A stretch of DNA of 34,812 bases from Planctomycetota bacterium (GTDB lineage Bacteria; Planctomycetota; Planctomycetia; Pirellulales; Pirellulaceae): positions 1 through 34,812 of the forward strand of contig JAGWWZ010000036.1 in NCBI GenBank assembly GCA_018970165.1, written 5' to 3'. Position numbers and translations under genes: made by a program. Every line of letters starts with the position of its first letter. Within the stretch, counting starts at the first letter, position 1. Shown one piece after another: positions 1,304 through 30,024 of this stretch. A model generated the notes under the pieces. It worked only from the letters and a program-made list of their open reading frames with translations, made no database searches and was not told the origin of the DNA.

Positions 1304-4064
1304 CCGATGGACTTTCCGGCTTACGGAACCGCCCCAACTGACGAATATGGTGCTGTTCGCGAGGCTTCATTGCGTGGCATTTCTCAGAGATCTCGATTGC
1401 CTTATCGATATTGCCGCGAATGAATTCGACTTCTGCGAGGGTGTCGAGATACGTATCGGTCGGCCGTTGCTGAACAACTTGTTGTGCCAACTGGTGCGCT
1501 CGTTCGAGCTCTACCCCGCACTTGGCAGCCAGCCACGCTGCGTTGTTCGCGACCAGGGTATCGTTCGGAAATCGCTCCAGATGGGATCGCATCGGACCCG
1601 CATATAGTTCGTACCATTTCTTGAGTGTCTCGTCACCGAACTGCGAACGAATCAATGGGACAACATCGATCAAGGTGTTGATCTGCTCGGGATAGACTTG
1701 GTGTGCTGTTCGAATCAATCGATCCGCCAACTCGAGCTTGCCCTCTTGAACAGCGTGCCAGAAACATGAGGCGAAGATCCGTTCGTATCGAAAGCTCCAC
1801 TGAGTCCAATCGATATCCTTCATTCCGGTCGCCCCCCCCTGTCCTTGGTCGGGAAACTGAGCTTTCGCCCGTTCCTGAATATCATCCATTGCTTTTTCGA
1901 TCGCCAACTGACGCAGCTCGGATATCCGATCGGGATGTTCAGCGACGGAACGGTGATACCAATCTGCCTGTTTCCAGGCTCCGAATTCCGTGTACGCATT
2001 TCCGTACCAAAGCTCATGCCAGGTGGAGGGTGCATGCCTCCGCAGCAGTTCCAGCATGAGCAAAACATCGGGCTGCGGTTCCATCTTTTGCGTAACGCGC
2101 TCGCTCATGAGATAACGCTCGAGCCATTCCCAGGAGTCCATTCGGGACAGGTTGCGCTTTTGCAAATTCATCCAATCGTCGAACCGACGGGCATCGGCCA
2201 GGCACTGGCTGGCCAGTAGATGCGCGTGGACATCTTCACGGTATTGATCTGCAATTTCCAGGCTGAGATTCGCGGCGGTATCAACTTGTCCAAGCTCCGA
2301 AAAGTATTTGGCAATCGCCATCCTAGCTGCGAGGGAATCGGAATGATCCTGCAAGAGATCGATCGCTTCCTCGGTCATGCCAAGTGTATCGAGAGTATCT
2401 GCGATATCGACCAGCATCGGTTCCAGTACGCTGGGCTCATGGAGCGAAGCGCGGATCATATCACGGATCACGGAAAGCAATTCCTTCTCGGACCAACCTG
2501 CCGGCATGCGCCCCTGGTTGAGATCTTCGACGATTTCGATACGGGCCTTAGGGTCCAGTTCCGGGTTGCGTTTGCGAAGCGCATCATAGAGGATCATCGC
2601 AGCGAACCGAATATTGGGGAAATTTTTGAAGAAGAGGGTTTCGAGAGTAACGCCTCGGGTCTCATCCTGAATTTGCTGGAGGCCGCGCTGAGATAATATC
2701 CATTCATTCGTCGGGCGGTCCTTCTCTCTTCTCGCACATAAATCGGCGATCACTTCCAGCCTGCGATGGTCGAGACCGTAGATTCTCCATTCGTTCAGGA
2801 GAGCGTCCCACTCGGTGAGAGATTGTTCGTCCCTATCGGTCTTGATATGACTGCGAATGCGGCGAAACAGGTGAGATTCCAACTCATCGAGTCCTAAACG
2901 ATGAAAGAGGGATTGAAAGCGAATCGGCTTATTCGCCAGAGGGACCAAATTTACCCACTTGTCAAACCATTTGTCGAGCGACTCGGTCTTGAGATCCGAT
3001 AGCCCTTCGATCTCCAGCAATCTCTCCAAGTCATTGCGGAGAAAAAGAATATCGACCAAGCCTTGGGGCGAATCGGATTTCAGGAGTTGTTCAAACGCAT
3101 CCTTGTCTCCAACGAATAACGCCATAGTGGCCTTTTGTTGGTTGTAATAGGACTTGGTCTTGCCTTTGTCCGTCTTTCGAAGGTCGTAATAAACCATGGC
3201 TTCGTCGTGTCGGCCGAGGCATTCGAGCAACATGATTCGTTGCACATCCCCCCAACCGGTCGTGGAGGTTGCTTTTTTGAGGGGATCCAGTTTGAGCCAT
3301 GCATCCCATCGTTGATGCCGGATGAGCAGCGCTTCGTATCGCTCAGACAATCCGTTCCGCTTCGCGACCGCCAAGGCTTCATCCACCCTTCCGTCCCGTT
3401 CGTGGGTAGCGATTTGGGAATCGGGAACATCCAAAGGTTCGTCGACTCGCCACTCAGGTGGCATGCCGAGTTCTTTCCAGCGAGCGTTCAATCCAACCCG
3501 TATCGCGTGTCTCGGAAGGACTACGTTGAGCAATCGCGGAATCAGGTTTTCTTTCCCATCGCGCCATGCCGCGGAGATGGCTTGATCGATCACCGTCGGA
3601 TGGTATGCCGATCGATAGCGAAACATCTCCTCGCGCGAGGCCTGCGGCACGATTTCGAGGATCTCGACCAACGCATCGATTTTCCGATCGTTGATGAATT
3701 TGTTTACGACCGATAGATCGCCATCGGCGAGCGATTGATAATCTCCCATCATCTCGAGCCGTTCCTGCATCGATCCCTGGATGCTTCGAACTCGGCGGAT
3801 CCACTGGAGCAAAGATGCGCGATTGGGATCGGATACACGGGATTGCTCTTCGAGCCACCGGTCGATATCCCATCGTGGGTCGCACAGTTTCAGGAACGCT
3901 GCGTTCCGCTCCGAGAATCGGCGATCGTCGAGTTGATCCAAGAGGGAGCGTGCGACCTCGCGTTCGTCCGCATCGCCTCGGACCGCAAGAACTGCGAACA
4001 GAATAGCGACCACACCTACCCAACGAAGGGACTTGCAGTTCGAAGTCTTCCGAAAAAATTCCAT
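1287..4064 (-). CDS. large exported TPR-like repeat protein, function unknown
   Basis: About 925 residues. An N-terminal hydrophobic segment (WVGVVAILFAVLAVRG) looks like a signal peptide or anchor, so the bulk is probably periplasmic or membrane-attached. The body is almost wholly helical, with degenerate TPR-like pairs. The clearest is near the C-terminus: NDTLVANNAAWLAAKCG, then DTYLDTLAEVEFIRGN and a third helix. No enzyme motif was recognised; scaffold or interaction roles are typical of such repeats. The open frame starts at a TTG at 4076, but the ATG at 4064 directly precedes the signal-like segment and is preferred. The 3' end overlaps the dehydrogenase tail to tail. The gene is 118 bp downstream of the double sulfatase on the same strand and could share its transcript. 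Confidence 0.75.
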   Translation of the reverse strand: MEFFRKTSNCKSLRWVGVVAILFAVLAVRGDADEREVARSLLDQLDDRRFSERNAAFLKLCDPRWDIDRWLEEQSRVSDPNRASLLQWIRRVRSIQGSMQERLEMMGDYQSLADGDLSVVNKFINDRKIDALVEILEIVPQASREEMFRYRSAYHPTVIDQAISAAWRDGKENLIPRLLNVVLPRHAIRVGLNARWKELGMPPEWRVDEPLDVPDSQIATHERDGRVDEALAVAKRNGLSERYEALLIRHQRWDAWLKLDPLKKATSTTGWGDVQRIMLLECLGRHDEAMVYYDLRKTDKGKTKSYYNQQKATMALFVGDKDAFEQLLKSDSPQGLVDILFLRNDLERLLEIEGLSDLKTESLDKWFDKWVNLVPLANKPIRFQSLFHRLGLDELESHLFRRIRSHIKTDRDEQSLTEWDALLNEWRIYGLDHRRLEVIADLCARREKDRPTNEWILSQRGLQQIQDETRGVTLETLFFKNFPNIRFAAMILYDALRKRNPELDPKARIEIVEDLNQGRMPAGWSEKELLSVIRDMIRASLHEPSVLEPMLVDIADTLDTLGMTEEAIDLLQDHSDSLAARMAIAKYFSELGQVDTAANLSLEIADQYREDVHAHLLASQCLADARRFDDWMNLQKRNLSRMDSWEWLERYLMSERVTQKMEPQPDVLLMLELLRRHAPSTWHELWYGNAYTEFGAWKQADWYHRSVAEHPDRISELRQLAIEKAMDDIQERAKAQFPDQGQGGATGMKDIDWTQWSFRYERIFASCFWHAVQEGKLELADRLIRTAHQVYPEQINTLIDVVPLIRSQFGDETLKKWYELYAGPMRSHLERFPNDTLVANNAAWLAAKCGVELERAHQLAQQVVQQRPTDTYLDTLAEVEFIRGNIDKAIEISEKCHAMKPREQHHIRQLGRFRKPESPSAKQSE

Positions 4065-4182
4065 TCCGCAATCCAAACAGATGACTTGGAAAATGAATGT
4101 TACCCATGGAGTCGAGAGGATCCTTGGAGTCTATCAATGACCCGAGGATAACTCAACCAAAAGAGGACAACTCGGAGACGAA

Positions 4183-6963
4183 TCAGCGACGTGCCTTGGC
4201 TTTTGATTCCGATTGGATCGGTTTTGGCTGTGGCAATTTGGCTCCAACCTCGGATCGCCAACGGGCTAATCGCTCTCTCATGGCGAACGCGAGTTTCTGG
4301 TGCTCGGCTTGGAGATTTCGAGTCTCGCCAAGATCCTCGTCGAGGTTATAGAGTTCGAGTCGGCCGTCTTCGAAGTACTCGATGAGTTTCCACGGGCCCT
4401 CGTGGATGACTCCACCGGGAGTGGTGCGAAATGCATCGGGCCCCGCTCCCAGATAGCCGGGAAAGTGCTGATAGATAGCCGTGCGTTGAAGACTCCCTCC
4501 GCGGAGGACAGGCAACAAGCTTTCTCCATCGAGGGCTTGGGCTGGTTTTGGTCCACCTGCAATCTCCAGCAACGTCGGGAACATGTCGACATGGATGGTT
4601 GGCACGTTGGATGACGAACCTGCCTTCACGATTCCCGGCCATCGCACGATGAGCGGAACCCGGGTACCCCCTTCATACAAACTTCCTTTGCCGCTTCGAA
4701 GGGGTGAATTGTCAGTGATGTCCCCATCCTTTTTGATCCCTTCCCGGACATAGCCACCGACCCCTCCGTTGTCGCTGGCAAAGACCACGATGGTGTTCTC
4801 CGTCAGTGCGAGTTCATCGAGCGTCTGCATGATTCGACCGACACTCTCGTCCAAGGAAGCGATCATAGCGGCATAGGTCGGGTTCTTGTGGCCACCGACT
4901 CCTTGTTTATTCACGAAGTGTTGTTTCCATTCTGGCTTTGCATCGTGGGGTGAGTGCACGCTGAAATGAGGCAAGTAAAGAAAGAAGGGTCGACCCTGGT
5001 TGCGACGCATAAAATCGACCGCGCGATCGGTGAGGAAATCGGCCAGATATTCTCCCTTGGGATAGGGAGTTTCCGGATTGGTCTCAAAGTCGAAGTGGGC
5101 ACCCATGCTGACGATGGCTTCGTCGAAACCTCGTTGGCTCGGATGATAGGCGCCTTTGTTACCGATGTGCCATTTGCCGAACATTCCCGTGGCATAGCCA
5201 GCTAGACGGAGTTGATCGGCGATCGTATCTCGATCGAGTGGGAGTTGTTCCACGTTATCGACGGGTCTCAATGGACGCTTGCTCCAATCAAAGCGATCGA
5301 TCGAACCGACTGTGTAGACGCCCGTCCGGGCGCCGTACTGACCGGAAAGAAGAGCCGCACGTGTAGGAGTGCAATTGGGGCAATGATGGTGATTGAGCAA
5401 TCGCATACCTTGCGAAGCGAGCCGATCGATGTGGGGTGTTTCGTAATACTTCGTGCCATAACAACCCAAGTCGGTGTAGCCGAGATCGTCAGCGAGGATA
5501 AATACTATGTTCGCCTTGCGATCCTGGGCATCGGCAACGGGCGGTTTCCATTGTGCAGGTTGCGGAGCCTTCGCCTTCAGGGTTGCGGAATCGCCACTCT
5601 CACGCATTTCGGATTCCATCGCGATCATCATCTCGGTGACGCGAACTGCGTGTTCTGGTTTCTCCGAGAGATCGTTGGTCTCGTGCGGATCGACATCCAA
5701 ATCGAACAACTGATTGCGATCGATGCGAGGATACCGAATGAGTTTCCATCGGCCGATGGTGATGGCTCGCTGCACATCGCGGTATGCGAACAGCAACCGA
5801 TCGCGTGCAGTCCGGTCCGGATCCGAGAGCGTGCCGTTCAGATCGACATACTCGCCAGGCACGTTGCTATGGATTCCACATTTTCTTGCCAGCGTCGGAA
5901 GGATGTCTAACGCATAGCAGAGCGCGTTGGTGCGACGATTCTTGGGGATCCCGGGACCGGAGAAGATGAGTGGTACGCGAATCGAATGCTCGTAGAGATT
6001 CTGCTTGCCGATCAGCCCATGGCTGCCGCGAGCCACCCCGCTGTCAGATGTAAAAACAACGATGGTGTTGTCCCCCATCGGCGAATTGCGAAGGGCTTCG
6101 AGTACGCGCCCGATTTGATGATCGACATACGAGATATAGCGATAGTAATCGGCCAGCATTTGGCGGACTCCTTGTTCGGAGCGAGGCCAGGGAAGGAGCT
6201 TTTCATCGCGAACCGTCATCTCGCCGTTATCTAAAGCGTGGAACGCTTGAAAATTCGGGGGTAATGGAATCTCGCTCGGATCGTAGCGAACTGGGAAATC
6301 ATCGGGGACGATGTGCGGATCGTGGGGACCAATCATCGGCAGATAGTAAAGGAAAGGTTTTCTGTCGTCTGATTGGCGTCCCAGTGTCTCGAGGGTGCGA
6401 ATGCATTCGTCGGCGAACTGCTCGCACGCGTGATTGGGTTCACGTCTGGGCGAAGCCAGTTTGCCATCGACCAAATCCTGCACCGGTGTTCGCATGGGGT
6501 TGTTCATGCCTCCCAGGAAGATCGAGTTGGCGTGCTGAAACGACTTGGCAATAGAAGGAGGGCCGTTGTGCCATTTGCCACTCATCCAAGTCGAGTATCC
6601 GTTGTCGGCGAAGACTTCGGGCCAAGAGGTATCGCGCATCAACTTCTCATCGACCCGGAATAGATTGCGACCTGACAGCAACATCGCCCGGGCAGGAACG
6701 CAGACCGCTCCCTGCATGCTTCCTTGGACATACGCGCGGTCGAAGGACAAACCCTCGTGCACCAAACGATCCACATGCGGTGTCTTGATGACCGGGTTCC
6801 CTAACGCACCGATGGTATCTGCCCGCTGGTCGTCGGTCAGAATGAACAAGATGTTCGGTTTGCTCGCGATCGCCGGCTCATATGCAGAAACCTTCGGCAG
6901 ACAATATCCAAGAAGGATGACAAGACCAAGGATCGCATGTGCAGGGAATCTACAGCGCAACAT
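4183..6963 (-). CDS. tandem two-domain formylglycine-type sulfatase, exported
   Basis: A 926-residue protein with a signal peptide (about 1-27) and two complete sulfatase domains in one reading frame. Domain 1 (about 36-455) has the metal-binding start NILFILTDDQ (D44, D45), the maturation motif CVPAR (C88) and FTSDSG near 305-309. Domain 2 (about 483-905) restarts with NIVFILADDLGYTDLG (D492, D493), then CTPTR (C531), GKWHIGN and FASDNGG. Both CxPxR motifs should have cysteine converted to formylglycine, which would need a maturase not present in this window. Single sulfatases are about 450-550 residues, so the length fits a fusion. The linker (about 456-482) is short and Ala/Pro/Lys-rich. 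Likely role: desulfating algal or host glycans in the periplasm. Specificity of either domain cannot be told. Confidence 0.92.
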   Translation of the reverse strand: MLRCRFPAHAILGLVILLGYCLPKVSAYEPAIASKPNILFILTDDQRADTIGALGNPVIKTPHVDRLVHEGLSFDRAYVQGSMQGAVCVPARAMLLSGRNLFRVDEKLMRDTSWPEVFADNGYSTWMSGKWHNGPPSIAKSFQHANSIFLGGMNNPMRTPVQDLVDGKLASPRREPNHACEQFADECIRTLETLGRQSDDRKPFLYYLPMIGPHDPHIVPDDFPVRYDPSEIPLPPNFQAFHALDNGEMTVRDEKLLPWPRSEQGVRQMLADYYRYISYVDHQIGRVLEALRNSPMGDNTIVVFTSDSGVARGSHGLIGKQNLYEHSIRVPLIFSGPGIPKNRRTNALCYALDILPTLARKCGIHSNVPGEYVDLNGTLSDPDRTARDRLLFAYRDVQRAITIGRWKLIRYPRIDRNQLFDLDVDPHETNDLSEKPEHAVRVTEMMIAMESEMRESGDSATLKAKAPQPAQWKPPVADAQDRKANIVFILADDLGYTDLGCYGTKYYETPHIDRLASQGMRLLNHHHCPNCTPTRAALLSGQYGARTGVYTVGSIDRFDWSKRPLRPVDNVEQLPLDRDTIADQLRLAGYATGMFGKWHIGNKGAYHPSQRGFDEAIVSMGAHFDFETNPETPYPKGEYLADFLTDRAVDFMRRNQGRPFFLYLPHFSVHSPHDAKPEWKQHFVNKQGVGGHKNPTYAAMIASLDESVGRIMQTLDELALTENTIVVFASDNGGVGGYVREGIKKDGDITDNSPLRSGKGSLYEGGTRVPLIVRWPGIVKAGSSSNVPTIHVDMFPTLLEIAGGPKPAQALDGESLLPVLRGGSLQRTAIYQHFPGYLGAGPDAFRTTPGGVIHEGPWKLIEYFEDGRLELYNLDEDLGETRNLQAEHQKLAFAMRERLARWRSEVGAKLPQPKPIQSESKAKARR

Positions 6964-12955: not shown

Positions 12956-13117
12956 AAAGCCCTTGCCGATCGAAAAAAGAGAGAGACAGCCAGAGCGGTA
13001 GAACTCGACAATGTAGTCTGATCTACCACAATGAAAGAGAATGGGAGTGGAAATTGGGTCATGTTCGCGATGCTCCAACGCCAAACCAAGAAACCTTCGA
13101 ACCCTTCGGGTGACTCC

Positions 13118-15325
13118 ATGAAATTCCAGTATGGCAACGGTGATCAGCCGCTCGACGGCTACACCATCAAGCGGGGAATTGGGGTTGGGGGCTTCGGCGA
13201 GGTTTATTTCGCCGAGAGCGATTCCGGGAAAGAAGTCGCCCTGAAACGGATCCAAAAGAATTTGGATGTGGAGATGAGGGGGGTTCGGCACTGCCTGAAC
13301 TTGAGGCACCCAAATTTGGTCGGAATCTACGACATCCGCTTTGATAAGAACGAGCAAGGTTGGATCGTCATGGAGTTTATCGAGGGAGAATCCCTGCGAG
13401 AAACTTTGGACCGTGCTCCCCAGGGGATGTCTCCCGAGCAGGCGATCCCTTTGTTCGCGCAGATTGTCGCGGGATGCACCTATCTGCATGATTCCGGCAT
13501 TGTTCACCGTGATCTGAAACCGGCCAACATCTTCATCGAGAATTCGATGGCCAAGATCGGAGACTATGGACTCTCCAAATACATCAGCGCCTCGCGCCGC
13601 GCTGGCCAAACGGAAAGCGTTGGTACCTTCCACTACATGGCTCCGGAGATCGGCAAAGGAGAGTATGGCAAAGAGATCGATATCTATTCTCTCGGGATCA
13701 TTCTCTACGAGATGTTGACCGGTACCGTTCCTTTCGACGGCGAGAGTACTCCTGAAATCATTCTCAAGCATCTGACAGCGGACCCCGATTTATCGATGTT
13801 GCCCACGTCGTTCGCACATGTGGTCGAGAAGGCGCTTGCCAAGAATCCGGCAAGCCGCTACCGCGATGGACGGGACATGCTTGCGGACCTCGGATACAGC
13901 ATTGACCCAAGTGGAATGGCGATCCGAACGAGTGAGCCGCTGCGAAATATCGAAAAAACATCCGGTCCGATTCCAGAGCGTCATTCACCCGCAACAGTTC
14001 CTTCGACTCCTCAGCCGAGAATGGTCTATACCAAAGGTGGCCAGGCTGTCGCGGTGAATAAAGGGTCCGAGCCATCGCTCGTTGACCGAATCCAAATGTT
14101 CTTCAGCGTTGGACTGCAAGGTCATGCGGAAGCATTGAAACATGAACCGATTGCAAGGTGGTATTTGCAGGTTCTTCATGATTTGGGGATACGTTCCCGA
14201 GAGTCGCAAGATGGAGCGCCGAATCAGAAGAGTGGGTGGTTCAAGTTGGTTGCGGTGATCGCGTTTGTTTTCATCCTTATCAACAGCGGATGGATTGCAC
14301 CGTCGTTAGCCATGCTCGGCTGGGCGTACATCATTTACTATGTGGTTTGGTTCTTGAACGTCGGCTACAGCAAATGCGGCGAGTCTGCAATTCCTTCCAA
14401 TTCGCCTTTACCGCGGGTTGTACGGGCCGTTGGTACTCAGGCCGCAGTACCGTCGGGTCCTGCGTTGCAAGAGACCGTGCATTTCAACCATGCAGATCAT
14501 GCTCCTCGACCGCGAGCCAATGTACCGCCCCGACCACCCGCGAGGCCGATTTCTAGCAAGCAAGCGCTTCGCATGTGGCAGCAGGAACAGCGTCACATGA
14601 TGAGCCATCAAGGATTGTGGACTCGGGTTTACTCCGCGACTCGTTCGATGACTTTCGCTGGCTTCATCGTTGGCATCCTCACCTACGGTGGTGGATTCCT
14701 GATGATGTCCAACGGACAGTTTTCCAACAATCATTGGCTCGGTGGCATCGCTTGGCTCGGAGTGATGACGACTCTGATGAGTTGGGTCATCCTGGTTTTG
14801 AGTCGGCGTTGGGAGTCGAGAACCGAAGACTCGGTTGTATTCCGATTCGTTCTGATGGCTACCGGCTTGGCTCTGGGCGCGGTCAGTTTCCAGGTCAGCG
14901 AGTTTCTGATGATTCCTTGGGACAAGATCTCTCGGACAGAGACAACGTCCATTGAGTTGTTCGACGAAGCGATCAATCGCAGTTGGACGGGGTTCTATAA
15001 CGCACAAGGGGTACCTGTACTGGCGGGCCACATGGCGTATTTCGCATGCTTGATGGGGATTATCCGTTGGTGGCGTCAATCCGATATCCTTCGCAAGAAG
15101 CGGTTTTCCATATGGCCGATCGTCTGGAGCGTCATCCTGGCAGCGTTGGTGCAGTTATTCTTTTACTTCCCAGAGCACTGGGACGTATTGTTGGCCGGGG
15201 CGGTATCGTTCGTGGTCCAGATGGCATCGCCATGGCAGGAACCGATGATCGCTGCAGTTCAGCCTGTACGTCCGCAGGAAACCTATCCAAAGAATGTCAC
15301 CGGTGTGGAGAGTCGTGCGTCATGA
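13118..15325 (+). CDS. Ser/Thr protein kinase with multi-spanning C-terminal region
   Basis: 735 residues from the ATG at 13118; in-frame ATGs at 13031, 13061 and 13070 would add up to 29 residues. A GGGTGA lies 4 bases upstream of the chosen start, and family-like sequence (PLDGYTIKRG) begins soon after it. Hanks-type kinase domain, about residues 14-265: glycine loop GIGVGGFGEVY, Lys43 in ALKRI, catalytic loop HRDLKPAN (130-137), DYG (149-151) in place of DFG, and MAPE. A Pro-rich stretch follows, then several hydrophobic segments (about 370-415, 515-600 and 630-700) that would fix the protein in the membrane with the kinase in the cytosol. Its stop overlaps the next start as ATGA, so translation is probably coupled. 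Confidence 0.9.
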   Translation: MKFQYGNGDQPLDGYTIKRGIGVGGFGEVYFAESDSGKEVALKRIQKNLDVEMRGVRHCLNLRHPNLVGIYDIRFDKNEQGWIVMEFIEGESLRETLDRAPQGMSPEQAIPLFAQIVAGCTYLHDSGIVHRDLKPANIFIENSMAKIGDYGLSKYISASRRAGQTESVGTFHYMAPEIGKGEYGKEIDIYSLGIILYEMLTGTVPFDGESTPEIILKHLTADPDLSMLPTSFAHVVEKALAKNPASRYRDGRDMLADLGYSIDPSGMAIRTSEPLRNIEKTSGPIPERHSPATVPSTPQPRMVYTKGGQAVAVNKGSEPSLVDRIQMFFSVGLQGHAEALKHEPIARWYLQVLHDLGIRSRESQDGAPNQKSGWFKLVAVIAFVFILINSGWIAPSLAMLGWAYIIYYVVWFLNVGYSKCGESAIPSNSPLPRVVRAVGTQAAVPSGPALQETVHFNHADHAPRPRANVPPRPPARPISSKQALRMWQQEQRHMMSHQGLWTRVYSATRSMTFAGFIVGILTYGGGFLMMSNGQFSNNHWLGGIAWLGVMTTLMSWVILVLSRRWESRTEDSVVFRFVLMATGLALGAVSFQVSEFLMIPWDKISRTETTSIELFDEAINRSWTGFYNAQGVPVLAGHMAYFACLMGIIRWWRQSDILRKKRFSIWPIVWSVILAALVQLFFYFPEHWDVLLAGAVSFVVQMASPWQEPMIAAVQPVRPQETYPKNVTGVESRAS

Positions 15326-16341
15326 GCAGGAACACAACAGGTTTCTCATTTTCGCTGGTTGCTACGTTTGCCTTGCTCGCCGTGATGATCTTTCTGTCCT
15401 ACGGAATGATTCTGCGCAGAGTTGAGACCCTTCCACCGGATCATATAGGTTCCTCGGAGTTTGCATTTGAGGAGAAATTCCGTTTCGAATCCGAAGTGAA
15501 GCGATTCGATGACCAGATGGACCAGATGGGGAAATTGACAACGACGTCGGAACCCTCGAACGATACGATCGACGAAGACGCCGAGTCATCGAAGCGTGCT
15601 GATACTTTAAAGGTTGCCGATACGGAGAAAACCAAGAAACAACCGTTATCCGATTCGATGCGATGGCTCAATCAATCGATCGATTCGCTCAGCGAAAAGT
15701 TGAATCAGATCTCAAAGAAGCTCGAGAACACCCAAGATCAAGCTCTCGTGGAAGCAGAGATCAAGAGGGCCTTCCGGGAGGCGTTCGTCGGCGAATTAAG
15801 TTCAGGTGATGTCGCAGAAGTGAGTGAGGATTCGAAATCTTTCGATCTCCCTGTGCTAGGCGAGGGGATTCCAGAGTGGATTCGTCAACGGGTGGTGGAA
15901 CCTGACCGTCTGTTGATCCCAATCGAGAGTTCGCTTCATGGAACATTGGAAGAATGCCGAGCGGAACTCGATTCAAAGCTGCCGCAGGAAGTCAAAAAAC
16001 TGATCGACGAGCACGTGTTGCGGACGGTTTCTGCGGATGACATTCCTGGCCTGACACCCGAGTATATCGCTGAAACCCTGATCGATCCGGCTGCCAGGTA
16101 CGACAACTATCAAGAGCGCCCCAGCGGCAATTTCCACCAGATGTGGGTAAGATTGTCGATCGACAAGCCGAAGCTCGAACAGATTCGTGAATGGGAACGG
16201 GAGATCATCACCTCCGTGCGAGTGTGGCTCTTGGGTGGTTTGTCGCTGGCGTTCTTGGGGACCTTTGCAGGATGCTCCAAGGTGATTCAGTTCCTGTCCA
16301 CCAGAGAACATGCACGCAGACAATTGCGACAGAACGTATGA
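15322..16341 (+). CDS. bitopic membrane protein between kinase and ECF sigma, candidate sensor/transducer
   Basis: 339 residues. Two hydrophobic segments frame the protein, near the N-terminus (about 9-30, SFSLVATFALLAVMIFLSYG) and near the C-terminus (about 296-318). Between them lie about 260 charged residues, including a coiled-coil-like stretch (SIDSLSEKLNQISKKLENTQ), and the short C-terminal tail is basic. This places a large domain on the outside of the cytoplasmic membrane. It overlaps the kinase (ATGA at 15322) and the sigma gene (ATGA at 16338), so the three products are likely made together. No anti-sigma zinc motif (HxxxCxxC) is seen. A sensing or sigma-restraining role is inferred from position only. 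Confidence 0.7.
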   Translation: MSRNTTGFSFSLVATFALLAVMIFLSYGMILRRVETLPPDHIGSSEFAFEEKFRFESEVKRFDDQMDQMGKLTTTSEPSNDTIDEDAESSKRADTLKVADTEKTKKQPLSDSMRWLNQSIDSLSEKLNQISKKLENTQDQALVEAEIKRAFREAFVGELSSGDVAEVSEDSKSFDLPVLGEGIPEWIRQRVVEPDRLLIPIESSLHGTLEECRAELDSKLPQEVKKLIDEHVLRTVSADDIPGLTPEYIAETLIDPAARYDNYQERPSGNFHQMWVRLSIDKPKLEQIREWEREIITSVRVWLLGGLSLAFLGTFAGCSKVIQFLSTREHARRQLRQNV

Positions 16342-16973
16342 ATGATGTGAACTCGGAACGAATTCTGGTGGATAGCATCCGCGAGGGAAACGCCGCTGCA
16401 TGGCAACAGTTCATCGATCGGTTCGAGGGGAGATTGCTCGCTTATGTCGGCGCTCGTTTAGCAGATCGGTCCCATGCTGAAGATATTGTGCAAGAGACTC
16501 TGATCGGCTTTGTCAACAGTTTGCCCAACTACGATTGTTCGCGACCGCTCGAAAGTTATCTATTTTCGATTGCAGCCTACAAGCTAACCGATCACCTGAG
16601 GCGCGAGGGCCGAAGACCGGTCACTCAGTTCCCATCCCATGGCGATACCAGCGATGGAGCCCGGCATGTTGCGGCCGCCGGTCGTGCAGTCAGCAGCGTT
16701 GCCCGCTCGATCGAGCAGCGTGCGAGCGAGGAGAAGTCCCTGTCCACGGCATTGCAAGATCAAGTCGCCAAATGGAAATCCCGAGGCGATTATCAGAAAC
16801 TCAAGTGCATTGAGTTGCTGTTCGTCGCGGGAGTCAACAACAAGGACGCAGCAAAGGAACTGGGGATCACCGAACAGCAAGTCGCGAATTACAAGTCGGA
16901 CTTTATCAATCGCACTCGCTCACTGATCGGACGTCAAGCGAGCCGCGACCAGTTCCCCGAACTCGAGAATTGA
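16338..16973 (+). CDS. ECF-family RNA polymerase sigma factor
   Basis: 211 residues from the ATG at 16338, which overlaps the stop of the upstream membrane protein gene. Sigma region 2 lies at about 10-85: DSIREGNAAAWQQFIDRFE, then ADRSHAEDIVQETLIGFVN and YLFSIAAYKLTDHLRR. Region 4 near 165-198 contains a helix-turn-helix (NKDAAKELGITEQQVANYKS). The linker between the two is longer than usual (about 80 residues). Planctomycete ECF groups encoded next to Ser/Thr kinases have been described (the ECF-STK groups), and this locus fits that general pattern. Phosphorylation by the adjacent kinase is possible but is not shown by sequence. The gene ends 30 bp before the convergent GlnE-like gene. Confidence 0.88.
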   Translation: MNDVNSERILVDSIREGNAAAWQQFIDRFEGRLLAYVGARLADRSHAEDIVQETLIGFVNSLPNYDCSRPLESYLFSIAAYKLTDHLRREGRRPVTQFPSHGDTSDGARHVAAAGRAVSSVARSIEQRASEEKSLSTALQDQVAKWKSRGDYQKLKCIELLFVAGVNNKDAAKELGITEQQVANYKSDFINRTRSLIGRQASRDQFPELEN

Positions 16974-20030: not shown

Positions 20031-20834
20031 TCAAAGGAACGAAACGGGCAGTTCGTCGCCCTCTATTCGGACATCGAGTCTCTCTGGGAAACGGGTTCCT
20101 TTTCGTAACCAAAGCGCCCCCTCGGAAGCTTCTTGTTCGGCGACCAGTCCGTGGTAGCGAATCATCTCCAGGGTCGCCAGAAATAGGCCCACCAGTGCAC
20201 TTTTGTGCAAGCCCGGTTCGAAGAGTTCGTGCAGTTCGATTCGATCTTCGACTGCGACTCGCTCATGGATAGTTTGCATGTAGACTTGGATCGGAGTTTC
20301 GTCGTAACGGATCGCTTCGGCAGGCGATGCTTGGCGAGCCTTTAAGATACGTCCGAACGCGCTGACCAAGTCCCAAACCTCGATGCGCGCTATGGGAGCT
20401 TCCTCGGAGTCGCTTCGGCGACGCGCTGCTACAGGAGCCAAACGCCTCAGATGCAATTGCCACAATCGACTCTGTTCGTCCAGTACGCACGCGATATCTC
20501 GGAACCGCTTGTACTGCATCAAGCGTTCGATCAGATGCGGAGACTGTATTTCGAGAGATTCGTTATTGTCCAAGGAATCATCTCGCGTACGGGGAAGGAT
20601 CCTGTCGGCCTTCATCTCGATCAGCAGGCTCACGATCTCAATGAACTCGCTGATATTGTCTAGGTCGAGTTCCGTGAGAACGTCCAGAAACTCGACATAC
20701 TGCTTTGTGATGCGAGCCAGAGCGATTCCCTCAATGCTGAGTTCCTCGCGCCGAATCAAATACAACAGCAGATCGAGCGGGCCGTGATAGCTCGGCAAAT
20801 CCACATCGAATTCTACTGTTGCAGCATCCGACAT
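20031..20834 (-). CDS. scpA: segregation and condensation protein A (kleisin)
   Basis: 267 residues. It has the ScpA N-terminal signature YHGPLDLLLYLIRREELSI (about 15-33), then ITKQYVEFL, and a C-terminal winged-helix region (ALVGLFLATLEMIRYHGL). ScpA is the kleisin that bridges SMC heads and works with ScpB in chromosome condensation and segregation. Neither smc nor scpB is in this window. The ATG at 20834 overlaps the stop of the upstream barrel gene in TGATG; a GTG one codon earlier is possible. Co-expression with outer-membrane assembly genes is likely from this coupling. The middle of the protein (about 130-165) is Arg/Ala-rich and poorly conserved in the family. Confidence 0.92.
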   Translation of the reverse strand: MSDAATVEFDVDLPSYHGPLDLLLYLIRREELSIEGIALARITKQYVEFLDVLTELDLDNISEFIEIVSLLIEMKADRILPRTRDDSLDNNESLEIQSPHLIERLMQYKRFRDIACVLDEQSRLWQLHLRRLAPVAARRRSDSEEAPIARIEVWDLVSAFGRILKARQASPAEAIRYDETPIQVYMQTIHERVAVEDRIELHELFEPGLHKSALVGLFLATLEMIRYHGLVAEQEASEGALWLRKGTRFPERLDVRIEGDELPVSFL

Positions 20835-22255
20835 CACCGAGTCAAGCCTGCGGAAAATGAGAAGACTTGTCGGTCGTCGTTATCCGAATAAGCGATCGGA
20901 ACGGCAAAATCGAACGCCAGTGGAGCGGGTCCCATAGCCGGAATCGCGATTCGAAATCCGAGACCGGGAGCCACACGGAAATTATCCCAGTTGACCTCGA
21001 TGTCCTTCTCCACGGTTCCGTAATCCACGAAGGCAACCATGCGAAGCATATCGTCTGCTGTGATTGGAAACATGTATTCTAAGGTTCCCAGGAATTGGAA
21101 GCGACCACCGACTTGGATCCCCGATTCGACAGGACTGGCTCCGCGGAACTGGAAACCTCGGATCGTCGAGAAACCCCCCGCGTAGAAGTTTTCAAAAATC
21201 GGTTGATCGGCCCCAGCGAACCCTGTTCGGAATGCGGTTGTGAAGGTGTGGCGTCCCGAACCATCGGCCCGTTCGCGAACAAGGAAGTAACGGCTGTAGT
21301 TGATCTGGCCGCGCGGGAAATCATATTCGCCGAAGACCTGATCGTAGATCAATTCCAGCAAGTGACCTTCGGTGGGAAGAAATGGGCTGTCGCGCGTGTT
21401 GTGGGCTAGGCGAACCCTTCCCGTATAGACGTCGTTGCTCCCCAACGCATCGTTGAGCGACTGGACCAGATCATTGCGAGGATTGAAAATCTTTACATCT
21501 TCGCCCCGGATCTCCGTGGTGAGCGATAGGTCGGGGGTAATGTCGTAACCGAGAGCCGCACGACCTCCAAGCCTCTGCTCGGACCAGTCCCGATAGAACC
21601 GCGTGAAGAAAAAACCACCTACCGAAAAACTGAAAGGTGAGTATCCGAACAGGCTCGGCTCGGTCCAGTTGACTGTGTAGCGTTGCACCAAGTTACCTGG
21701 GACGAGTTCCAAACGGAAGTTTTGGCCAGCCCCGCGAAACGCCCCATTGAACATATCGCTCGGGCGACTTGGCAACCGAAACAAATCGAAGTTTCGTTCC
21801 TCGAGAATGATATTCCCAGCAACCCCCAAATCGCTATTGACCGATCCGCCCACCGAGAATCGTCCGGTCTGACCTTCGGATACCGTGACATCGATCGGCA
21901 CATCTCGATAGTTGGGCATGTATCCAAAGGGTGGCGAGCCCATGAATCCAGGATTCGGGTCAATCTGCCATGGTTGATTCAAGGGTGGCAATGGCTGATT
22001 CATTGCGCCCGGGGGAGTTGCCGGAGGATAAAACGGGGCACCGACCACCGGGGGTTGTGTACCGGGCAAATAGTAGGGGGCGGCTGGATTGTTGACGGGA
22101 GGCAACGGAGGGCCGCCGAATTGAGCTTGCGCTACTGTCGCCCCGGTGAGAGAGCAAACCCAAAGGCCGATTATCAAAACCGAAACGGTCCTCATCGAAC
22201 TGGCATGACCAGAAGATGCAATCGACTTGAGGAAGATTCGCCACAAATGGTGCAT
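20834..22255 (-). CDS. BamA/Omp85-type outer-membrane barrel lacking POTRA domains
   Basis: About 473 residues from the ATG at 22255; a TTG at 22282 and an ATG at 22195 are alternatives. A signal peptide (VSVLIIGLWVCSLTGATVAQA) is followed by a Pro-rich linker of some 80 residues. Then comes the last strand before the barrel (DVTVSEGQTGRFSVGGSV) and a complete Omp85-like barrel. The barrel has the loop-6 type motif STIRGFQFRG and the C-terminal FSFSAGLTR. A planctomycete BamA barrel normally follows five POTRA domains in one chain; here those are encoded by the gene just upstream. The barrel start is only 13 bases past the stop of that gene. Likely role: insertion of outer-membrane proteins together with the separate POTRA protein. 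Confidence 0.85.
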   Translation of the reverse strand: MHHLWRIFLKSIASSGHASSMRTVSVLIIGLWVCSLTGATVAQAQFGGPPLPPVNNPAAPYYLPGTQPPVVGAPFYPPATPPGAMNQPLPPLNQPWQIDPNPGFMGSPPFGYMPNYRDVPIDVTVSEGQTGRFSVGGSVNSDLGVAGNIILEERNFDLFRLPSRPSDMFNGAFRGAGQNFRLELVPGNLVQRYTVNWTEPSLFGYSPFSFSVGGFFFTRFYRDWSEQRLGGRAALGYDITPDLSLTTEIRGEDVKIFNPRNDLVQSLNDALGSNDVYTGRVRLAHNTRDSPFLPTEGHLLELIYDQVFGEYDFPRGQINYSRYFLVRERADGSGRHTFTTAFRTGFAGADQPIFENFYAGGFSTIRGFQFRGASPVESGIQVGGRFQFLGTLEYMFPITADDMLRMVAFVDYGTVEKDIEVNWDNFRVAPGLGFRIAIPAMGPAPLAFDFAVPIAYSDNDDRQVFSFSAGLTR

Positions 22256-22268
22256 GGATACAGACTCG

Positions 22269-23678
22269 CTACTTGCGAACAAATTCCTGATCTTCCTGTT
22301 GGCTTACGGTCACACGCGGGAGTTCGCCGCGGGTCGGGTCGGTGTTGAAAATCGTCGAAAACTTGAGCCGCCGTTCGCCGTTCTCAAGCTCTCTCTTATC
22401 GATGATCTCACCCGGCCGTAAATTGCGCAAAGGTTGCAGCACCACGTGCCGCTTCGTGAAATCGCCATCGATATGAACGCGGATATCGCTCGCTCGATAC
22501 ACATCACCCTCTTGGACGTGATAGACAATGTCCACGCGATGATCTGGTTGGTAGATGACTTCACCCTCGACATCGCAAAAGATGTGCCCCTGAGCCCCGA
22601 ACACATCGGTCAGCAATCGCTCATCCTTCAACTTGTTCGTCTGCAAAAACGGTTCATCCGCCTTGGCGAGCAAGTAGGGCTTGAGGTCGCTCGGTTGATA
22701 GCGTTGCATGCCTGCGATCGAAACGGAATTGATCTTGTACCGATTGCCTTCGTACACCACGAAGGTCACATCGATAAACTGTCCTCCCCGATTGTAGGCC
22801 TTGTGATAATCGACCCTTGCATCGAAATATCCCAGCGAACGATAGTACCCCATCAACTGCTCTCGATCCTGCTCGAGCTTCAAGTCAGAGGCTTTGTTTC
22901 CGAAGTATGGCGTAACTCCCCAGCGAGAGTCTCGCGACGAAATACGAGCTTTGAGCAGATCCTCGCTGAAAGACTCATTGCCGATGATTCGGATGGAATG
23001 GATTCGCTCGACGGGACCCTCGTTGATGAGGAACTCCACATCGCGCTCGTAAGGCTTGAGACCTTTTCGGATCTGGATGTCGATCTGATTCATCCCTTTG
23101 TCTTGATACAATTCGATCAACCGGGACTTGGCGGAATTCAAGGCAATCGGATCGAGAGGATCACCTTTGGCCAACCCCGCATGCTTCTTGAGAGCCCCCT
23201 CCTCCAACGCTTCATTGCCGAGAAACTCCACCGACCGAATGATCGGTTTTTCGCTGATGATCAGCCGGATGTGTACCCCTTCGGCAGTCGAAACGAAGTA
23301 GGGGTCCACCTTGCGAAACAAATTGGTGCGATACAGGGCGCTGATGTCGCGATTGAACGTTTCCTTGTCAAAAGCGCGATCCTCGCGAGACTGCATTTGA
23401 GACAAGATAAAATTCTCCGAGACGGATTGGTTTCCCTCGATCGTCACCGACAGGATCACCGCTCCCTGACGACCCTCGCGCTCCGCGAATCCACCTGCTT
23501 CATACAGTTTTTCTCGAAAGGAAGGGTCTTCAAACGCCGGAGCCGCCGCACCGTCCGACCCACCCATCTGGGCAAAGATATGTTGGTCGTTCCAGCCGCT
23601 GGTCACCCATCCAGAAATAGCGAGACTCAAGATCCATAGGAAGCTTCGAGATAGCCGGCAGCAACAGGAAACCATCAT
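22269..23678 (-). CDS. five-POTRA periplasmic protein, BamA N-terminal part as a separate gene
   Basis: About 469 residues from the ATG at 23678, which has GAGG six bases upstream; the frame extends to a TTG at 23702. A signal peptide (about 8-26, RSFLWILSLAISGWVTSGW) is followed by five consecutive POTRA-like units starting near VILSVTIEGN, IIRSVEFLGN, RIHSIRIIGN, YKINSVSIAG and SDIRVHIDGD. Each has the beta-alpha-alpha-beta-beta pattern and ends in short EKP, EGP or EGN-type turns. This is the complete periplasmic half of a BamA, but the chain stops (EFVRK) before any barrel. The barrel follows at once in another frame. Role inferred: chaperone-like docking of nascent outer-membrane proteins, paired with the downstream barrel. 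Confidence 0.87.
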   Translation of the reverse strand: MMVSCCCRLSRSFLWILSLAISGWVTSGWNDQHIFAQMGGSDGAAAPAFEDPSFREKLYEAGGFAEREGRQGAVILSVTIEGNQSVSENFILSQMQSREDRAFDKETFNRDISALYRTNLFRKVDPYFVSTAEGVHIRLIISEKPIIRSVEFLGNEALEEGALKKHAGLAKGDPLDPIALNSAKSRLIELYQDKGMNQIDIQIRKGLKPYERDVEFLINEGPVERIHSIRIIGNESFSEDLLKARISSRDSRWGVTPYFGNKASDLKLEQDREQLMGYYRSLGYFDARVDYHKAYNRGGQFIDVTFVVYEGNRYKINSVSIAGMQRYQPSDLKPYLLAKADEPFLQTNKLKDERLLTDVFGAQGHIFCDVEGEVIYQPDHRVDIVYHVQEGDVYRASDIRVHIDGDFTKRHVVLQPLRNLRPGEIIDKRELENGERRLKFSTIFNTDPTRGELPRVTVSQQEDQEFVRK

Positions 23679-23787
23679 TCCAAGCCTCAGAAACGATAGC
23701 AATCAAAGTCCACAGCGCTCCCATCGATGGCAGCACGGAGATTGCGGTTCGATGAATACAAGATGAACCGACCTGTGGCAATGTCAG

Positions 23788-28437: not shown

Positions 28438-28566
28438 GCGAGATAGCCGTTAAATTCCCCCGGGTTTGCTTAATCTCCGTACGCGGATTACCCGATTTAA
28501 AAGGAAGACTTTGTCGCGAGCTCCGGACATTATTTCAGCGCTCGTGCTTTTTTGGGGGGAGCACTC

Positions 28567-30024
28567 ATGAATCAAATGCAAGTTCTTTTTCTCAGACGTC
28601 GCGGTTGGTGTGTGGCGGCTTGCGCCGCACTCGCATGGGGAGGGGCCTTGGGAAGCGATGCCGCTTTCGGCCAACTCCGAACGGGCCGCAACGGTTCGCG
28701 GGAATTCTATAACGATCCACGATCCAACTCACCCGCTCGCCGAATTGGAACCGGTATTCAAGATGATGAAGGGGTCGTCCAAGCGGGTTGCCGATCCTGC
28801 GTTCAGGGTCATGAACGCGAGGTTGTTGCGGATCATGTAGGACACTCGGACGAGTCTGCAATAGTAGTCGACGGCGATATCGACAGCGATATCGATGGCA
28901 CGACGGGATCCTGTGGTGCATGCGGCAGCGCCGACGGTGCCTGTGGTTGCGATGGGATTCCTCACATCAACATTCGGTTGGCACTCCCGTTTATCAACGC
29001 GTTTGACAATCTATCGGTTCGGATGGAAGCGGCCACGTTCTGGCGAGATGATGCTGCGATTCCAGCCCTTGTTCGGACAGGTACTACCGCTACTGCAAGG
29101 GACCTATTCGGTGGCACGACAGGTTTGGATGATACCACCCAAGGGTATCGCGGTGAGGTCGCTTGGCGTTTTGGAAAAGACGTTTGTACCAGCTTGCAAG
29201 TGCGTTTCTTCGATGCGGGTGCACAGTCCCTGACGTTCGACAGTGTCGGTACGAACGCTACCATCCCCGCGATCGTTCGACCGTATCTCAATATTCCAGG
29301 TTCAACGCAACAGTCGATTTCCGTTCGCGAACCGGGAGTATCCAGCGGCGATGTTTTGGGGCATGCAACCAGCGACTTGTTCGGCGGTGATATCCTACTA
29401 AGACAGATCGCCTATCGCACTCGGCATAGCAAACTCGATCTGCTCCTGGGTTACCAAACCGCCTCGTTGTCGGACAGCATCTCGGTCAATTCAATCACCA
29501 ACACGCCCCCGTCTCCCAATCAAACCCAAATCTTAGAACTTCGAGATCGCTTCGACACCAACAGTCGATTTCATGGTGGGGTCATCGGTTTCTCGGGTAT
29601 CGCTTACGCACCTCGATGGAGCGTCTCGAGCATGGTCAAATTGGGAATGGGTAACATGGAACGCTACGTCGGAATCGAAGGTTTTCAACGTATCACTGCC
29701 GGAGTTCCCGCCGTGTCAACGTCCACGGCACAAGGGCTTCATGCTCGTGCAACCAACATGGGAACCTACCATTTCGACACGTTCGTGGTTTCCCCCGAAG
29801 TCAACCTGACTCTGGGATATCGATTGACCCGCCGCCTCGAAGCAACCTTTGGATACGACTATCTTCTCCTACCCAAGGTCGCTCGAGCCGCAGAACAATT
29901 CGATCCCGAATTGGGAGCGAATCTGAGCAATCCGCTGACAGGCGACCCTCGTCCACGGTTCACCTTTCGCGAGAGCGACTTGGGGATTCACAGTCTCAAT
30001 TATGGTCTGCAGTATCGATACTAA
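28567..30024 (+). CDS. BBP7-like outer-membrane beta-barrel protein
   Basis: 485 residues from the ATG at 28567, with a strong ribosome binding site (GGGGGGAG, 5 bases upstream). The signal peptide (WCVAACAALAWGGALGSDAAFG) is followed by an acidic, Cys-containing region (CGACGS and CGCDG near residues 118-133). From about residue 140 alternating strands form a barrel, ending with RLEATFGYDYLLLPKVARA, HSLNYGLQYRY and a terminal aromatic. This layout matches the planctomycete BBP7 family of outer-membrane proteins. Function is unknown; porin-like roles are usually assumed. It probably depends on the BamA-type machinery encoded elsewhere in this window. Confidence 0.82.
   Translation: MNQMQVLFLRRRGWCVAACAALAWGGALGSDAAFGQLRTGRNGSREFYNDPRSNSPARRIGTGIQDDEGVVQAGCRSCVQGHEREVVADHVGHSDESAIVVDGDIDSDIDGTTGSCGACGSADGACGCDGIPHINIRLALPFINAFDNLSVRMEAATFWRDDAAIPALVRTGTTATARDLFGGTTGLDDTTQGYRGEVAWRFGKDVCTSLQVRFFDAGAQSLTFDSVGTNATIPAIVRPYLNIPGSTQQSISVREPGVSSGDVLGHATSDLFGGDILLRQIAYRTRHSKLDLLLGYQTASLSDSISVNSITNTPPSPNQTQILELRDRFDTNSRFHGGVIGFSGIAYAPRWSVSSMVKLGMGNMERYVGIEGFQRITAGVPAVSTSTAQGLHARATNMGTYHFDTFVVSPEVNLTLGYRLTRRLEATFGYDYLLLPKVARAAEQFDPELGANLSNPLTGDPRPRFTFRESDLGIHSLNYGLQYRY

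Follow-up and report, generated by a model that had tools for sequence, protein, structure and literature searches.

Split BamA genes in the planctomycete family Pirellulaceae, with the cut inside the POTRA5 beta2-beta3 hairpin

The 34,812-nucleotide stretch of Planctomycetota bacterium DNA analyzed here (the window; GenBank assembly GCA_018970165.1, contig JAGWWZ010000036.1; family Pirellulaceae) carries two adjacent minus-strand genes between which the parts of the outer membrane protein BamA are divided, the POTRA domains in the first and the Omp85 barrel in the second. The POTRA half contains a hydrophobic N-terminal region, POTRA1-4, and POTRA5 minus its last strand. It ends with a TAG at 22271-22269, and the barrel half begins 13 bases later with an ATG at 22255 in a different frame, just as an earlier note on this DNA had described; a second ATG inside the barrel half, at 22195, is a possible later start. 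The TAG-13 bases-ATG junction is kept identically in a near relative (L049). The features of the pair are as follows.

22269..23678, minus strand: POTRA half of BamA, 469 amino acids (aa) from MMVSCC; the open reading frame (ORF) opens at 23702
23250..23465, minus strand: POTRA1, approximate bounds (Pfam match 23250-23456 and model strands)
23019..23249, minus strand: POTRA2, approximate bounds (Pfam match 23016-23246 and model strands)
22749..23018, minus strand: POTRA3, approximate bounds (Pfam match 22746-23006 and model strands)
22509..22748, minus strand: POTRA4, approximate bounds (Pfam match 22506-22739 and model strands)
22296..22508, minus strand: POTRA5, beta1-alpha1-alpha2-beta2 only, without beta3 (AlphaFold model and structure alignment)
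22256..22268, minus strand: intergenic gap, 13 bases
20834..22255, minus strand: barrel half of BamA, 473 aa from the ATG at 22255
22124..22255, minus strand: signal peptide region of the barrel half, signal peptidase I (SPI) type, ending ATVAQA before QFGGPP (in-house heuristic, not SignalP)
21911..22123, minus strand: Pro-rich linker of the barrel half, 71 residues, 23 of them Pro
21869..21901, minus strand: VPIDVTVSEGQ, strand homologous to POTRA5 beta3 (hydrophobic alternation and conservation as in fused relatives)
20837..21868, minus strand: Omp85 barrel (PF01103, 1.4e-44)

Pfam finds POTRA (PF07244) in four stretches of the POTRA half and Omp85 (PF01103) once in the barrel half, both well above cut-off. 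The BamA equivalog model TIGR03303 is divided between the two chains, with model positions 2-367 in the POTRA half and 386-738 in the barrel half, where the match begins at residue 119. The scores are 209.5 and 142.9 bits, respectively, each below the cut-off of 297; added together they pass it, as a sum of two chains scored apart. Annotation is affected, since each half of the window pair alone misses the equivalog cut-off. A standard BamA has five POTRA domains N-terminal to a 16-strand Omp85 barrel. The two chains of the window together have four Pfam POTRAs, the beta-alpha-alpha-beta of a fifth, a beta3-like strand, and an Omp85 barrel, but on two ORFs rather than one, and the same two-ORF arrangement holds in all 110 assessable genomes of the family. 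The genome of the window (95.9% complete) has no Omp85 or POTRA match besides the pair, and each of the 24 Pirellulaceae genomes assembled as a single contig has one full-length Omp85 match, which is the barrel of the pair; in this single-contig set there are extra partial weak Omp85 matches in G032 and G178 and an extra weak POTRA match in G241. The search for a second, fused BamA that the earlier note had proposed therefore gave no full-length copy in the genome of the window or in any of these 24. The pair supplies the single conserved full-length Omp85 of the genome, and the two genes are probably a two-chain variant of BamA, with a predicted role in the assembly of outer membrane proteins.

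POTRA domains have the strand and helix order beta1-alpha1-alpha2-beta2-beta3 (PMC4811774). The POTRA chain was modelled with AlphaFold (mean predicted local distance difference test [pLDDT] score of 75, from an alignment of 12 sequences); in the model POTRA1-4 are each beta-alpha-alpha-beta-beta and POTRA5 is beta-alpha-alpha-beta only. In alignments to solved structures, most rows for full-length E. coli BamA place the end of the model at residue 407-408. We take beta3 of the E. coli POTRA5 to lie just past that end, at about 412-420. The cut is inside the POTRA5 beta2-beta3 hairpin, and the missing strand, VPIDVTVSEGQ, is on the barrel chain directly before the barrel. The complete set of five POTRA units seen by the earlier note is thus four by Pfam, with a fifth that ends before beta3 and has this strand on the other chain. 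The beta3 strand in split genomes retains alternating hydrophobic residues as in fused relatives and has a mean pairwise identity of 0.37, versus 0.38 in fused proteins; the corresponding values are 0.21 for the adjoining linker and 0.60 for the barrel. Conservation of POTRA5 without beta3 (0.45) is on a par with that of POTRA1-4 (0.38-0.44).

The barrel half was used to search 60 relatives, the family (241 genomes), the order (246), the class (158), and the phylum (118), with matches in 59, 227, 236, 157, and 118 genomes, respectively. Split and fused forms were counted per genome, from loci read base by base among the matches listed. Loci were read in 113 of the 241 Pirellulaceae genomes, of which 110 are split, none are fused, and 3 are unclear, being at contig ends. 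In the other families of the order, 59 genomes are fused, 11 are split (7 in family f3, 1 in f4, 1 in f5, and 2 in f9), and 4 are unclear (G393, G284, G275, and G277); in the other families of the class, 18 are fused and 1 is broken (G525). Farther out, 79 of the 80 best matches in the phylum outside the class lie in an open frame of at least 773 aa, long enough for a fused BamA, and the frame in the remaining genome, G597, is 696 aa and seems to run off the contig start. The survey of relatives that the earlier note called for thus finds the same split in every assessable Pirellulaceae genome and in 11 genomes from four further families within the order, and its recurrence in 110 genomes makes sequencing error not credible. 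The split is genuine, and it is an old feature and not a local one. Directly upstream of the barrel in the 110 split family loci is the POTRA ORF, with an ORF-to-ORF gap of -370 to 372 bases.

Some split-looking matches outside the family were set aside. Contig ends truncate G284, G275, and G393 and interrupt a fused frame in G429; L181, the broken locus of G525 in another family of the class, looks like a plain frame break, with a 415-nucleotide overlap and no junction signal peptide by eye. A separate arrangement is present in locus L046, where positions 1840-6864 hold one POTRA gene followed by two tandem barrel genes. The second barrel ORF (5311-6864) has 50% identity to the barrel half of the window and a signal-like N-terminus by eye; such a tandem suggests that the split permits barrel duplication with one common POTRA arm.

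Export signals were called with the in-house heuristic, and counts are given without hand correction. Of 110 Pirellulaceae loci, 106 have a called export signal on the barrel half (85 lipoprotein type and 21 SPI type) and 4 have none. Signals were also called in 238 of 2,200 codon shuffles (10.8%; lipoprotein type in 16 of 2,200), in 0 of 110 POTRA gene ends, and in 2 of 77 fused relatives, over the 300 codons that precede the barrel. A narrower first form of the heuristic gave 67 of 70 barrel halves, 11.4% of shuffles, 0 of 70 POTRA ends, and 0 of 37 fused loci; it was slightly widened, and the controls were repeated with the final form on the 110 split and 77 fused loci. The argument of the earlier note that a frameshift error would not create a signal peptide at the junction is borne out by the 106 of 110 barrel halves set against 2 of 77 fused relatives, and the signal peptide and Pro-rich linker that it saw in the window are both present. 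At least 3 of the 85 lipoprotein calls are wrong, as L057, L072, and L098 look like SPI signals by eye; L088 and L132, missed by an earlier run, look like lipoproteins by eye. These five labels were hand-corrected for the tree only, on which the signal type of the barrel half changes 6 times (58 labelled rows). The genus of the window has mainly SPI-type barrel halves (5 of 8 loci), with two loci without a call and one doubtful lipoprotein call. Across all split families there are 95 lipoprotein calls, and not one has Asp at position +2, the residue for inner-membrane retention in E. coli. In some genera the heuristic makes the POTRA half a lipoprotein as well, as in L076, L082, L083, L099, and L105.

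Purifying selection acts on both halves. In close pairs the ratio of nonsynonymous to synonymous substitution rates (dN/dS) is 0-0.04 for the barrel (7 pairs) and 0.03-0.06 for the POTRA half (8 pairs), and the barrel linker is looser, at about 0.1-0.5 with one pair at 0. A broader run in the genus was mostly saturated, with 4 and 6 usable of 28 pairs and medians of 0.05 and 0.11.

Fused proteins of the order show where the split may have come from. They have a Pro-rich insert in the same POTRA5 hairpin, 149-438 residues long in the 18 of 19 loci that could be parsed; the insert parser failed or misplaced the insert on most fused rows outside the order, and in L182, a fused locus of another family of the class, the hairpin is continuous and without insert. 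RGQSP-like motifs are present in 20 of 37 fused rows, with two or more copies in 18, and an RGQSP(D)-like motif recurs, often twice, in the Pro-rich linkers of fused loci L126-L152. Among 76 split loci the motif is on 33 of the 65 POTRA tails found and on 50 of the 76 barrel linkers. One motif on the POTRA tail and one on the barrel linker suggest that the cut fell between two motifs, although in eight counted loci of the genus of the window neither half has one. In a fused ancestral BamA the beta2-beta3 hairpin of POTRA5 would have borne an insert, long and rich in Pro; the gene would have broken inside this insert, and the downstream piece would then have gained its own export signal. In a tree of both halves the Pirellulaceae form one clade (SH-aLRT [approximate likelihood ratio test] support of 100), and four changes between fused and split are needed, but a single clade for all splits is not rejected (approximately unbiased [AU] test, P of 0.086, 57 rows); the tree is a quick one, weakly supported among families. 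The true gene fission proposed by the earlier note stands, on the 110 of 110 genomes, the signal controls, the selection on both halves, and the lack of a second full-length Omp85 in the single-contig family genomes, and its placement in the linker between POTRA5 and the barrel does not, as the cut is inside POTRA5.

We consider it probable that the pair is a two-chain BamA that arose by fission in the POTRA5 insert, that the barrel strand completes POTRA5 in trans, and that the pair works as an ordinary BamA. The POTRA chain would dock on the barrel chain by insertion of the N-terminal strand of the latter into POTRA5 as its beta3, and the joined pair would then act as BamA does. In most genomes a lipid anchor on the N-terminus of the barrel chain, leashed by the Pro-rich linker, would keep beta3 at the outer membrane's inner face, ready for docking. 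We also lean, with a little less assurance, toward the wider reading that a two-chain BamA is obligate throughout the family, its POTRA5 permanently completed by the barrel-chain strand and its barrel chain lipid anchored in most genera.

Coevolution lends weak, mixed support to the pairing of POTRA5 with beta3. A coupling analysis of 190 paired sequences (114 split and 76 fused), restricted to POTRA3, POTRA5, and barrel columns, ranks the POTRA5 by beta3 window 12th of 344 by mean and 4th by the top five; this window holds 7 of the 100 highest pairs, against 1.3 expected. The POTRA3 control window is at ranks 170 and 138 of 344. In split sequences only, the POTRA5 by beta3 window is at rank 5 of 344 by mean. 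An initial run with 108 rows looked stronger than the 190-sequence set, its two highest pairs being POTRA5 by beta3.

Several observations weigh against the two-chain reading. The binding of the POTRA and barrel chains to each other is putative. POTRA5 is the weakest folded part of the POTRA-chain model (pLDDT of about 50-72), and the AlphaFold model of the barrel half has a mean pLDDT of 37.6, so that its modelled beta3 strand (residues 78-84) is untrustworthy. The beta3 strand is also far less conserved than the barrel (0.37 versus 0.60). In the split-only couplings POTRA5 by beta3 falls to rank 65 by the top five, with none of the top 20 pairs and 2 of the top 100 (1.3 expected), and in fused sequences only it has ranks of 115 (mean) and 12 (top five), with the POTRA3 control higher, at 40 and 10; as the contact must exist in fused proteins, the low fused-only rank shows that the method is underpowered here. 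A POTRA-half signal is called in only 83 of 106 family genes (58 SPI type, 25 lipoprotein type, and 23 none), and the POTRA half of the window has no call, its N-terminus being signal-like by eye only. Lastly, 14 of the 241 family genomes, all in multiple contigs, have no barrel match, and 4 of these are at least 90% complete; in G202 and G206 the POTRA ORF is present, at the usual size for a split gene, and G084 and G210 have neither half.

The strongest alternative is a two-chain BamA held together otherwise, with the Pro-rich tails, the RGQSP motif, a BamD-like lipoprotein, or the barrel turns on POTRA5 as the glue and beta3 as a lead-in to the barrel. RGQSP-like motifs are indeed present in the fused linker, with split copies on the POTRA tail and barrel linker, there are five BamD-type tetratricopeptide repeat (TPR) matches in two long frames of the genome of the window, and the coevolution of beta3 with POTRA5 is weak. 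But beta3 is retained as in fused BamA, and without it the POTRA5 sheet would be one strand short; moreover, the absence of the motif from both halves in the eight loci of the window's genus means that RGQSP cannot be the general glue. We regard this alternative as unlikely, although it deserves more credit than any of those that follow.

A functional parting of the halves, with the barrel acting alone as a POTRA-less Omp85 (like the noNterm proteins, or Sam50 minus its POTRA) and the POTRA protein as an independent periplasmic chaperone, has a slim chance. POTRA-less Omp85 proteins are known (PMC4104836), and L046 has a single POTRA gene for two barrel genes, but the POTRA ORF is directly upstream of the barrel in the 110 split loci, and POTRA5 and beta3 are both still constrained.

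Recoding, assembly error, and decay are all very unlikely, with next to no probability for any of them. The joining of the two frames in translation, by frameshift or stop readthrough, has in its favor that in some genomes the barrel frame is already open before the POTRA stop (the negative gaps), but it would put a signal peptide or lipobox inside the joined protein, and the relative frame is evenly spread over 70 loci (19/27/24), which rules out a shared frameshift or readthrough. The reading as a frameshift introduced by assembly or sequencing, or as a decayed copy beside a fused BamA located elsewhere, seems to have a comparable case in G525, but is countered by the agreement of 110 of 110 assessable family genomes, the lack of a second full-length Omp85 in the window's genome and the single-contig family genomes, and the purifying selection on both halves.

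Other genes of the window are organized around the pair as follows. On the same strand a Fur-type regulator lies upstream and scpA and glnE lie downstream, the barrel-half stop overlapping the scpA start by 4 bases. On the plus strand, 28552-30024 codes for a BBP7 beta-barrel porin, and 13031-16973 holds, in order, a protein kinase ORF (764 aa), a second ORF (431 aa, without Pfam match) that overlaps it by 280 bases, and a sigma-70 region 2/extracytoplasmic function (ECF)-type sigma factor.

The usual description of BamA is of a single chain, and in models of the beta-barrel assembly machinery (BAM) the link between POTRA5 and the barrel often transmits POTRA motion to the barrel gate. We know of no other BamA made of two chains, and no published split BamA was found in the open-licence literature, a set without bioRxiv and most subscription papers. 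Planctomycetes outside the Pirellulaceae include Tuwongella. A planctomycete proteome study detected BamA in Tuwongella membrane fractions (PMC8567305), and Speth et al. (2012; PMC3422733) relied on BamA to mark the outer membrane in planctomycetes, Pirellula staleyi among them, with no occurrence of "split" in the text. Heinz and Lithgow (2014; PMC4104836) described noNterm Omp85 proteins and Omp85 lipoproteins, planctomycetes being unmentioned in the main text, and in a 2026 BAM review (PMC13067283) planctomycetes and fission are unmentioned and "split" occurs once, about a tree. Browning et al. (2015; PMC4950039) showed that fine matching of POTRA and barrel is required. If the two-chain reading is true, the covalent POTRA-barrel link is dispensable and the POTRA arm could be loaded or exchanged. 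A natural two-chain BamA makes testable the need for covalent joining of POTRA5, the exchange of POTRA arms, and the insertion of a lipid-anchored barrel.

Compared with known systems, the pair is most like BamA itself, with identical parts in the same order and halves that match complementary stretches of one equivalog model. It differs in having two chains, two export signals, and a break inside POTRA5, as well as in the barrel chain, for which a lipoprotein signal is called in 85 of the 110 family genomes, although not in the window. The Omp85 lipoproteins of Bacteroidetes, for which the name TamL is taken from NCBIfam, share a lipid anchor on an Omp85 protein (PMC4104836). In these, however, the lipid precedes three POTRAs, on the N-terminal side of the first (PMC4104836), whereas in the Pirellulaceae it would be on a barrel chain without a whole POTRA. 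TamL has lipobox, POTRAs, and barrel on one chain, and the barrel half of the window is SPI type; against a cut-off of 400, the TamL model scores 10.9 bits with the barrel half and 38.3 bits with the POTRA half. The noNterm Omp85 proteins are similar in having a barrel chain without POTRA domains (PMC4104836). They differ in that the Pirellulaceae POTRAs come from the adjacent gene and the barrel retains POTRA5 beta3 and a long exported linker; noNterm proteins have no N-terminal extension, and the barrel of the window is preceded by the 71-residue linker and the beta3 strand. Chaperone-usher pili use donor-strand complementation, in which a second chain lends the strand that a fold lacks, but in the Pirellulaceae the putative strand donation would serve a permanent envelope machine born of gene fission.

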